A DNA stretch of 41,167 nucleotides, taken from NCBI GenBank assembly GCA_003210285.1, contig QCVS01000014.1, positions 1-41,167 on the forward strand. Direction: 5' to 3'. The stretch is from Prochlorococcus sp. AG-686-J21. Its GTDB lineage: Bacteria; Cyanobacteriota; Cyanobacteriia; PCC-6307; Cyanobiaceae. Below the pieces are notes generated by a model. It did no database searches. It saw only the letters and a list, made by a program, of their open reading frames with translations, and was not told where the DNA came from. Below, piece by piece: positions 36,959 to 39,496 of the stretch (position 1 is its first letter; the number at the start of each line of letters is the position of its first letter). Position numbers and translations under genes: made by a program.

Positions 36959-37016
36959 AGCTTAAGATATAAAACATTAAAAAAAAATATATATATATTT
37001 ATATATTCTTAATTAC

Positions 37017-37101
37017 GGAGAGGTGGCTGAGTGGTCGAAAGCGAACGACTCGAAATCGTTTAACAGGAGACTGTTCGTGGGTTCGAATCCCACCCTCTCC
37101 G
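37017..37101 (+). tRNA. trnS-CGA: tRNA-Ser (anticodon CGA)
   Basis: Class II tRNA with long variable arm. Acceptor GGAGAGG (37017-37023) pairs with CCTCTCC (37094-37100), discriminator G at 37101. Anticodon stem AACGA/TCGTT with loop CTCGAAA, anticodon CGA. T-arm GTGGG-TTCGAAT-CCCAC. CCA is not encoded. Its 3' end is repeated twice in the following 500 bp. The spacer before it holds an A9 run and an (AT)n tract. Confidence 0.97.
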
Positions 37102-37144
37102 TAACGACTTCATTTGCAGACTAAGGTTATGCTGTAATAAGTCC

Positions 37145-37186
37145 TCCAACTAGACTGCAAACACAGGATAGTTGGATATTTTTCTT
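37145..37186 (+). terminator. Possible terminator of tRNA-Ser
   Basis: TCCAACTA (37145-37152) pairs perfectly with TAGTTGGA (37169-37176) across 16 nt, followed by TATTTTTCTT (37177-37186). The loop is longer than usual. A second, overlapping imperfect pairing (37114-37123 with 37151-37160) is possible. Confidence 0.45.
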
Positions 37187-37353
37187 ATGGTAAGATAACT
37201 TTTTGATTTTGAAATATAAGGTATTTCTAGGGAAAATATGGGTAACAAATAAGTGGTACATGTTTTATTTCCATGGGGTATGAAAAGCACCCATGGGGTA
37301 CATAAAAATACCAGTCCGATTTCATGAAAATAGGAGTAAAACCAAAACCCTTA

Positions 37354-37362
37354 CCTCTCCGT
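37354..37362 (+). repeat. Partial copy of the tRNA-Ser 3' end (relic att site 1)
   Basis: CCTCTCCGT matches the last acceptor-stem bases, discriminator and following T of the tRNA (37094-37102). It is short alone, but it is followed by TTTTTTTGCAG, similar to TTTGCAG located 12 bp after the tRNA. Confidence 0.5.
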
Positions 37363-37413
37363 TTTTTTGCAGTTTCTAGAAGTCCCAGATAGGTTCAAAT
37401 AAAGAGTTTTTAA

Positions 37414-37446
37414 AACTATTAGTGAGGTTTTTCTTCCCTAATAGTT
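37414..37446. repeat. Inverted repeat inside the scar region
   Basis: AACTATTAG (37414-37422) and its exact complement CTAATAGTT (37438-37446) flank a 15-nt centre. It may be a hairpin of a vanished transcript or a protein site; no U-tract follows. Confidence 0.45.
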
Positions 37447-37574
37447 ACCACTATTCCACAGTAGACACTAATTCGTTGTGTGGGGTGTAGTTGTAGTGTG
37501 GGGTAAATATGAATTGCTCTCAAAATGCTTCCTGTATGGTTCTATAACTGACTATATGGAATGAGATGTAATAT

Positions 37575-37586
37575 CACCCTCTCCGT
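37575..37586 (+). repeat. Partial copy of the tRNA-Ser 3' end (relic att site 2)
   Basis: CACCCTCTCCGT is identical over 12 bp to tRNA-Ser 37091-37102 (end of T-arm, acceptor 3' strand, discriminator and next base). The distance between the two copies is 484 bp. This is the best candidate for the distal attachment site. Confidence 0.65.
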
Positions 37587-37672: not shown

Positions 37673-39496
37673 ATGAGGTTAATATTCTATTTATTTATAT
37701 TTAGTCAATTATTAAATTTCATTAGTGTCTTTGCAGATAAATATAGAATAGAATCCCCTAAATTAAGGCCAATACAATGGGAGAAAATACAAGAAAGTAA
37801 TTCAAATAATTTGGAAAAAATAATCTGGAAATCTTATAAAAATGATGAAAGTTATTTTCAAAATAAAATTGATGAAAGTTCTGTAATAGAAAAACTTAAA
37901 AAATTTGGGGGCGGAAGTAAATATAAATCGCAACGAAAATTCACTCATTCTATGTTTGAAATTTAACCCTATTTGCCACTTAATAATTATCTTGAGTTTA
38001 GAGATTTTCAAATCTCGGTCAGATGGAAATCATCCCTTGATGGTGGCGTATCTGGTGGTATTGGGCAACAAAATCCATCATTAGTTTTTGATTATGGGTT
38101 AACTGACTCTTCCCTTATATCCTTTTATTTTTCTGAAGCTGATGATGATTTATTCAACTTAATTGATGGAAAAAAAAGTAATTATCATTGGCAAAATTAT
38201 GCTTTGTCATTTAAGAAGAAATTATTATCTGAGAATAAATATAATTTTGGACTGTCAATGGTCTCAACTATTGAATATTGGAGGCAAGCTAGTGGATCTG
38301 AAAATACAAAAAGTATATATAATCAACAGAATAATTTATTTGGTAAAGATAAATTTCAAAATATAGTTGGAGCTTTTTCATTACCATTATCGAAAAATTT
38401 AAATGATAACTTTACTTTTTTAATTGTTCCTGGATATACATTCTTACCTGAGAAATTAGGCTCAAGAGGAGTTAGTAAAGATGCATATGGAAATAATTTT
38501 TATTTAGGAAGCGGTTTTATTTTAGATATAGTTGATGATGTTGATCTGCTTTTCTCATATACCACTCCTTTTGGACCTGGAAATAACTATTTTGATAGTG
38601 AACTTAATTACTCTAGAAAATCTTTATATAGTTTAGGTCTTGGTTGGAGTATCAATCCTAAGATTAGATTTGAAAGTAAAATAACCAACTCATACGGATC
38701 AAGTCCAGCCACAGGCTTACTTACTATTCCATCAGATAACAAGCTACTTTATTCGGCTAATATAATTTATAAACCTTATGAAGAAGATACTTATCTTAAA
38801 GCTTTTAATAAAAGGGATAAATTGATTTCCCATGGCGGAATTACAGTTAGTAATGCATTGATACCAAAACATGGAACTTCCCATATCAATTTAAATTATG
38901 ATAGTAAAGGGAATTTGTTTGCATTTTATGGTTATTCTTTATCAAATATATTTCAATTAGAGTTGGTAAATATTGGTACTTTTCAGGATGCAAATTATTT
39001 GGTAAATAAAGATAGAAGTTTATATTCAACTTACTTAAGTGAAAATAATCTTAGTTACAGATTAGGAGGTAAATTATTAATATTTAGTCCTCAAAAAGAT
39101 GATCTTTTTTGGATGACAGTGAGAACATCTGTTGGAAGAAATGATGATACTAATCAAGGTTACCTATTCAGTGAATTGATAAATACTTTTAGATTTAATG
39201 ATAAGGTTGTCTTCAATTTAAGTCCTAAATATTTTTTTAGTGGACTGGAAAGTTTTGGAGGGGTTGGAGTTTCAAGTTATGTAAATTTATTAGATAACTT
39301 GCAGTTTATCCCTGAATTAAATACTACTTTTAAAAGTAATTCAGATTTAAACTATTCATTAGGATTAAGGTATTCTTATCTTTCTGGAAAATCAATTGAT
39401 TTATATTATTCTAATGCAGTCGGTATTCAGGACATCGGACAATTTCTTGAAGATAAAGAATATAGACTTGGTTTCAAATTAAACTTTTTATTTTAA
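37673..39496 (+). pseudogene. Large outer-membrane beta-barrel protein interrupted by one in-frame TAA
   Basis: Codon 98 (37964-37966) is TAA, but the same frame continues for another 509 codons. The joined product would be about 606 aa: a signal peptide (LIFYLFIFSQLLNFISVFA), a short polar region, then after the stop PYLPLNNYLEFRDFQISVRW, SSLDGGVSGGIGQQNPS and FDYGLTDSSLISFYFSEADD, and a long series of aromatic alternating strands ending in KLNFLF with a C-terminal Phe. This is the layout of an unnamed cyanobacterial barrel family. The downstream part has a TTG at 37973 but no signal peptide, so without readthrough it could not be exported. Either a recent nonsense mutation or stop readthrough; otherwise a base-call error. 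Confidence 0.8.

Follow-up and report, generated by a model that had tools for sequence, protein, structure and literature searches.

Why should a gene-free stretch behind a tRNA gene contain further copies of the 3′ end of that tRNA? The question arose from the window, a stretch of 41,167 nucleotides from Prochlorococcus sp. AG-686-J21 (contig QCVS01000014.1), in which a tRNA-Ser(CGA) gene (37016–37102 by ARAGORN; placed by Rfam at 37017–37101) is followed by a 570-bp spacer. A preliminary description had read this spacer as the scar of a tRNA-targeted mobile element, and had proposed that relatives be compared for insertions, and for an integrase gene, between the tRNA and the copies of its end. 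All features of the window described below lie on the forward strand.

The tRNA-Ser(CGA) locus in the window and in relatives

The 12-bp sequence CACCCTCTCCGT occurs exactly at 37091–37102, the 3′ end of tRNA-Ser(CGA), and again at 37575–37586. Within the tRNA it comprises the 11-bp att core CACCCTCTCCG (37091–37101) plus one base, and the second occurrence forms the right attachment site of the segment that we call B. Exact 12-mers are expected by chance 2.1–2.8 × 10⁻⁶ times in the 570-bp spacer and 9-mers 2.9–3.5 × 10⁻⁴ times, so the longer of the two copies reported previously is real. It is also the sole copy of the 12-mer with two or fewer mismatches within 3 kb 3′ of the tRNA. No 3′-end copies were found within 3 kb of tRNA-Arg, the second tRNA of the window, and none with two or fewer mismatches in the 14–15 kb behind each of tRNA-Ser(TGA) and tRNA-Ser(GCT) in the same genome. 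The spacer has no open reading frame of at least 80 amino acids, in agreement with its earlier description as gene-free. Structured RNA was considered and rejected as a content of the spacer, because the only Rfam matches in the window at gathering score are the two tRNAs.

The tRNA is preceded on its 5′ side by a solute-binding protein gene (PF13343), and the spacer is followed by a barrel-type gene (37673–39496), which has no Pfam match and takes its label from the sequence-only first reading, and then by a cobQ-type gene (PF07685). The barrel-type gene carries a TAA at codon 98 (37964–37966), at a position occupied by Glu in 13 of 16 aligned relatives, which bears out the nonsense mutation reported for it; in many relatives the gene was not found between the tRNA and cobQ.

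The region was matched in 149 of 151 genomes of the genus (own genome included), and the spacer in 52 of 266 genomes. We took intervals from 60 matching genomes, mostly the better-scoring ones, and picked 17 further loci for their match to the spacer, of which 3 without tRNA-Ser were dropped; the remaining 14 brought the set to 74 loci, or 75 with the window (374,706 bp). Allowing one mismatch, we counted 57 copies of the core in the orientation of the tRNA, 45 of them exact, and none in the opposite orientation. Across 200 permuted cores the mean was 0.485 occurrences; the highest count was 17, from a permutation with a letter order unlike that of the real core, and the next was 4. At least one core match, that in L065, is apparently a chance copy inside the flanking gene. 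Copies are present at 40 of the 75 loci (the window, 30 loci from the initial 60, and 9 of the 14 selected by spacer match). The distance from the tRNA to cobQ ranges from 624 to 17,026 bp (median 4,013) in the 63 complete intervals.

The proposed comparison did not yield the unchanged, insertion-free spacer that would have weakened the scar reading. In relatives this tRNA is an integration hotspot, with DNA inserted exactly between tRNA-Ser(CGA) and repeats of its 3′ end, in segments of 0.06–7.5 kb. In G076 (L045), a 3.5-kb element carrying GIY-YIG and MrcB/NOV_C genes sits precisely at the position of the window's junction between tRNA and spacer; it is followed by a second core, and then by the same sequence that directly trails the tRNA in the window. 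Some types of left end touch the tRNA in certain genomes and trail the core of another element in others, which indicates that the elements stack. Restriction-modification genes were among the cargo examined, and the site may therefore matter for phage defence.

Two remnants and the border between them

The spacer of the window is a mosaic of element ends that are present in the insertions of relatives, as expected of the scar that had been proposed. Its first part, segment A (37103–37353, about 250 bp), matches the left end of what we call A-type elements and has no cargo. It is 96% identical to the copy in G076 (where that copy lies behind another element), 97% to that in G193, 93% to that in G031, and 88% to that in G027; the A-type elements of G076 and G027 carry a polysaccharide-lyase-type gene. 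The A-type repeats GTGGTACA / CATGGGGTA at 37253–37301 (starts at 37253, 37272, and 37292) are putative iterons of this segment, and the A-type element in L045 has the sequence CATGTGGTACA at each of its ends.

Segment B (37363–37586, 224 bp) likewise has no cargo. Its left half corresponds to the left end of the elements in L038 (G012), L064, L047, and L141 (G032 and G096 being among the hosts), and its right half to the right end of those in L038, L047, L083, L141, and L142 (with G012, G096, and G137 among the hosts). Matches to both ends of the L038 element run across an iteron at 37478–37504, whose first base precedes the end of the right core by 107 bp, and they overlap there at GTTGTGTGGGGTGTAG, a sequence present at both L038 ends. 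Because the two halves overlap at a repeat that both ends carry, we read B as a fusion of the two ends, left and right, of a single element; six extra bases are present at the fusion point. A B-like form with a degraded core occurs in G096. In the named genome collection, the B-type right-end pattern was found on seven contigs, all of them labelled Prochlorococcus; a B-type right end is present on a contig of MIT 9107. A search of 15 genomes for TGTTGG-N6-TGTTGG matched in 13, with 10 of these sharing a single site elsewhere, and the pattern read backwards gave four matches in total. The same search pointed to an element at tRNA-Ser(TGA) of G137, which is 7.5 kb long (L133:4934–12560) and has like iterons at both ends.

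Between A and B lies the 9-bp match to the tRNA end that had been reported at 37354–37362, a partial att core (CCTCTCCGT) placed by alignment with G031, L040, L049, and L140 and with the left ends of B-type elements. The match itself stands, but it is not a plain copy of the tRNA end: it marks the A/B border, with either a mixed origin or a decayed core. In G031 the A sequence continues as TTACCTCTTCTC, and the window has TTACCTCTCCGTTTTTTTGCAG; the left part of the match reads like A in G031, and the right part is the left attachment site and the left border of B. The alignments make it most likely that A was joined to the left attachment site of B at the shared letters CCTCT, a reading favored by G031, which shares TTACCTCT with the window yet has no core there. 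Alternatively, the 9 bp may be the decayed right core of an A-type unit, because an intact core occupies the same place in the 257-bp short units of A type found in G074, G118, and G258 (L040, L049, and L140). These units match full A-type elements only over the first 230–243 bp, and we found no full element with a right end that matches the three of them.

The earlier suggestion that one or two nested elements had inserted and been lost was thus close. Two elements are stacked here and their cargo is gone, but their ends remain.

End layout, short forms, and integrases

The ends of the elements at this site share a layout. A lag-12 repeat (identity of at least 9/11) that starts at −114 to −97, counted from the core's end, is present in 23 of 47 non-redundant right ends and at that threshold absent from the other 24, whereas other 9-base windows contain one in 0–5 ends and shuffled sequences give a mean of 0.13 per window; related elements are not independent in these statistics, and the controls leave kinship in. 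Closer to the core, a repeat with a spacing of 10 bp is most pronounced near −56 (mean identity 0.53 versus 0.36). The 12-bp iterons begin about 93 bp before the core at the right end and lie about 110–200 bp behind the core at the left end. For 44 segments 500 bp or longer, the longest string shared by the left and right repeat regions averages 12.8 bp, compared with 7.8 bp in shuffled left/right pairs (sd 0.46, maximum 9.6 of 500), and in 22 of the 44 the two regions share at least 11 bp, kinship again being retained in the controls.

Eleven of 57 segments are only 58–263 bp long and free of cargo, with a longest ATG-initiated open reading frame of 45 amino acids. Seven short forms (those in L051, L056, L061, L078, L084, and L145, and segment B of the window) consist of a left-end half and a right-end half that overlap at a repeat, the overlap in L056 exceeding the length of the repeat. 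The 58-bp form in L085 is fused at the outer repeat, and a 97-bp segment is mostly tandem repeat. Short forms other than that of the window retain both cores.

Element ends are more alike than their hosts. Using about 335 bp upstream of the tRNA, mostly flanking gene, as the measure of host divergence, we found that the element ends of G193 and G076 are 99.6% identical versus 69.7% upstream of the tRNA, those of the window and G193 96.6% versus 70.8%, and the 257-bp units of G074 and G258 97.6% versus 70.7%. Segment A is 96–97% identical to copies in hosts that are only 71–77% identical upstream of the tRNA. Further pairs with alike element ends occur in near-identical hosts. Near-identical ends in diverged hosts point to horizontal movement of the elements, and they suggest, short of proof, that short units may move without cargo.

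Integrase genes are rare at the site. PF00589 searches of 22, 39, and 68 genomes (129 in all), with positions compared by eye with the places of the tRNAs, gave a match in the tRNA-Ser(CGA) interval of a single genome (1/129), a count that can miss integrases because many genomes are incomplete and intervals are broken by contig ends. When four recombinases served as phmmer queries, none of the 75 intervals gave a match. The genome with the PF00589 match, G142 (L173), is the kind of strain that the preliminary description had hoped for: its 5.0-kb element at tRNA-Ser(CGA), with an exact core at +5016, encodes a 413-amino acid integrase that starts 179 bp behind the tRNA and matches PF13356 (arm-binding), PF14659, and PF00589. 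An integrase with an arm-binding domain thus lies between the tRNA and an att copy, the arrangement of a P4-like integrase element. The iterons of this element (ACACATGTAAAA type) and its outer repeats resemble, by eye, those of L084-0, L071-1921, and L151-0 (420–589 bp). A second repeat type links an integrase-bearing element to this site: TGTGTTTGGGA iterons are present at both ends of an element with a 429-amino acid integrase at tRNA-Ser(TGA) of G050, and an 821-bp element at tRNA-Ser(CGA) of G010 carries the same unit. Two integrase-bearing elements at tRNA-Ser(GCT) have a like layout with other repeat units. The elements of G142 and G050 also hold a serine resolvase gene (PF00239; L173:14030–14698, further in) and a serine resolvase/invertase gene (L102:9754–10371), respectively, and these enzymes might act in the formation of short forms.

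At integrase loci elsewhere, the reading covered tRNAs, copies of the core, and repeats at the ends, with part of the loci included in the last step, and no integrase associated with the repeat type of A or of B was found; for B-type repeats, phmmer found none in the 14 usable spacer-matching loci. In viral contigs, two iteron patterns and the left junction of B had no matches each, and relatives of the G142 integrase were represented by one weak match (22% identity). PF00589 matches of about 386–398 amino acids occur in most of the genomes searched. In the genome of the window, a tyrosine recombinase of about 390 amino acids (L094:6507–7685, contig C3) is encoded between ferrochelatase (hemH) and cobO/pyrH/frr; an integrase match of 215 amino acids is present on the contig with tRNA-Pro(TGG) and one of 418 amino acids on a 5.8-kb contig (L099/L100, contigs C16 and C22).

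Origin of the remnants and comparison with known systems

We consider it probable that the spacer consists of two stacked remnants, and that the elements concerned are non-autonomous relatives of tycheposons that are mobilized in trans and shrink to short scars or to a form like that of MITEs. The preliminary description could not see that B is fused, that the match at 37354 is mixed, that the ends share a layout, or that integrases are rare in the resident elements. In the proposed scheme, the 3′ end of tRNA-Ser(CGA) would serve as the chromosomal attachment site for varied small integrative elements of Prochlorococcus, each ending in the core CACCCTCTCCG and many bearing two sets of repeats at either end, one near the core with a spacing of about 10 bp and one of 12-bp iterons deeper in the element. 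The most likely role of these repeats is as arm and accessory sites bound by P4-like tyrosine integrases. Because the resident elements rarely carry an integrase, mobilization in trans is probable, with the integrases of a few autonomous elements performing integration and excision. New elements would enter beside the tRNA, and stacking would follow. In the window, B would have been the first to insert, and recombination of its left with its right iterons would have cut it down to 224 bp; A would then have inserted next to the tRNA, ahead of B, and shed its cargo, the A/B border retaining part of a core. More tentatively, and with somewhat less than an even chance, there may be a MITE-like class of non-coding units of about 210–265 bp, consisting solely of two att ends with arm-site iterons, that spread from cell to cell by means of integrases provided in trans and serve as landing pads or empty vehicles for cargo; the window would hold one or two of these (B, and perhaps A).

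The elements could instead be dead remnants of ordinary integrase-bearing islands, with the integrase lost, the arrays and short forms products of decay, and nothing moved in trans. Integrase-bearing elements of like layout do exist at tRNA-Ser(CGA), tRNA-Ser(TGA), and tRNA-Ser(GCT), and A and B in the window are clearly decayed. However, integrase-less elements with intact cores have ends that are 96–100% identical in distant hosts, which suggests recent movement, and G137 (about 100% complete) has two att-bounded segments of 1.8 kb and 97 bp at this site and of 7.5 kb at tRNA-Ser(TGA), yet its sole PF00589 match is a 389-amino acid gene elsewhere, by its length the chromosomal recombinase. 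We therefore give decay of this kind clearly less than an even chance.

It is also possible, if on balance doubtful, that short forms, among them B and the A-type units of 257 bp, move about as native minimal units and did not arise by deletion in place, A in the window being one with a decayed right core. The 257-bp units are 97–98% identical over their full length in hosts that differ by about 29% upstream of the tRNA and have different neighboring sequences, and the partial core of the window is at the place of their intact core. Against this, B-type forms were found in two genomes only (the window and G096) and are too diverged to show movement of a unit, and the coreless sequence that G031 shares with the window favors a joint. 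A third proposal, that the conserved chromosomal tyrosine recombinase (about 390 amino acids) moves the elements as an integron-like host system, would explain why a match of about 386–398 amino acids is the sole one to PF00589 in some complete genomes, but we hold it to be unlikely because the repeat types vary by element family, two types occur in elements with their own integrase, and the recombinase has no Pfam arm-binding domain. Ordinary intergenic DNA with chance copies of the tRNA end is extremely improbable. The shortness of the copies (12 and 9 bp) speaks for this reading, but some 2 × 10⁻⁶ 12-mers were expected, the core counts by strand were 57 and 0, and both the mosaic homology to element ends and the filled site of G076 contradict it.

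The locus offers a base-level view of the gain and loss of cassettes at one tRNA of a streamlined genome, from insertion through stacking to collapse into a scar. The end layout provides a sequence handle for integrase-less mobile elements that gene-based searches miss, and could pair them with an integrase able to move them.

Islands at tRNA ends, stacking with decayed att-flanked elements, islands with repeated tRNA ends, and tycheposons are already known from the sources quoted here. The last of these were reportedly introduced by Hackl et al. in 2023. In the passages quoted here, tycheposons are elements of Prochlorococcus that border a tRNA (seven tRNAs are used), encode a tyrosine recombinase, carry variable cargo, and measure 4–200 kb (PMC10872708). 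The elements at tRNA-Ser(CGA) resemble them in host, tRNA border, and variable cargo, and the tyrosine recombinase is found here in the rare autonomous form. Insertion at a tRNA gene is evident from the end copies and the filled site, but the spacer of the window has no tyrosine recombinase (PF00589 in the interval of 1/129 genomes), and its remnants, about 0.25 and 0.22 kb long with no open reading frame of at least 80 amino acids, lack cargo and fall far below the quoted 4–200 kb. We file them as remnants related to the tycheposon family and claim no membership for them.

Islands of Methylopumilus, in which tRNA ends are repeated in varying number between accessory genes (PMC10872708), are a clear precedent for stacking in another organism and at another tRNA; the passage that describes them mentions no end layout, iterons, or cargo-free forms. 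The tRNA-Met island of Prochlorococcus MIT9313 contains pseudo-tRNA-Met genes, as well as partial copies of a 53-bp site shared with phage (PMC2784084). According to the part cited, it likewise has tRNA pieces repeated in a hypervariable region, and phage integration was proposed; it involves another tRNA, and relics of insertion sequences are prominent. For CIMEs and tandem accretion, the cited excerpt tells of decayed elements in which attL and attR persist and which accumulate in stacks at a single target gene (PMC5704250). In B the right core is intact and the left one partial, and unlike in the account quoted, loss at this site would run through terminal iterons to a short standard form. 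Among the hitchers quoted from a review, MITEs are served by transposases and CALINs by integron integrases (PMC11389934); the elements studied here are similar in being short non-coding or integrase-less units with an enzyme that probably acts in trans, and differ in ending in att sites of the tRNA type.

The titles, abstracts, and passages of the literature searched held no description of cargo-free tRNA-targeted elements, which does not in itself prove novelty. A recurrent cargo-free form of such elements, arising by fusion at arm-type repeats, may be new. In solo LTRs, the two ends of an element are fused at a common repeat and the interior is lost; segment B, with its ends fused at a shared repeat, is alike in this respect, but it derives from a bacterial integrative element and its repeat is short.
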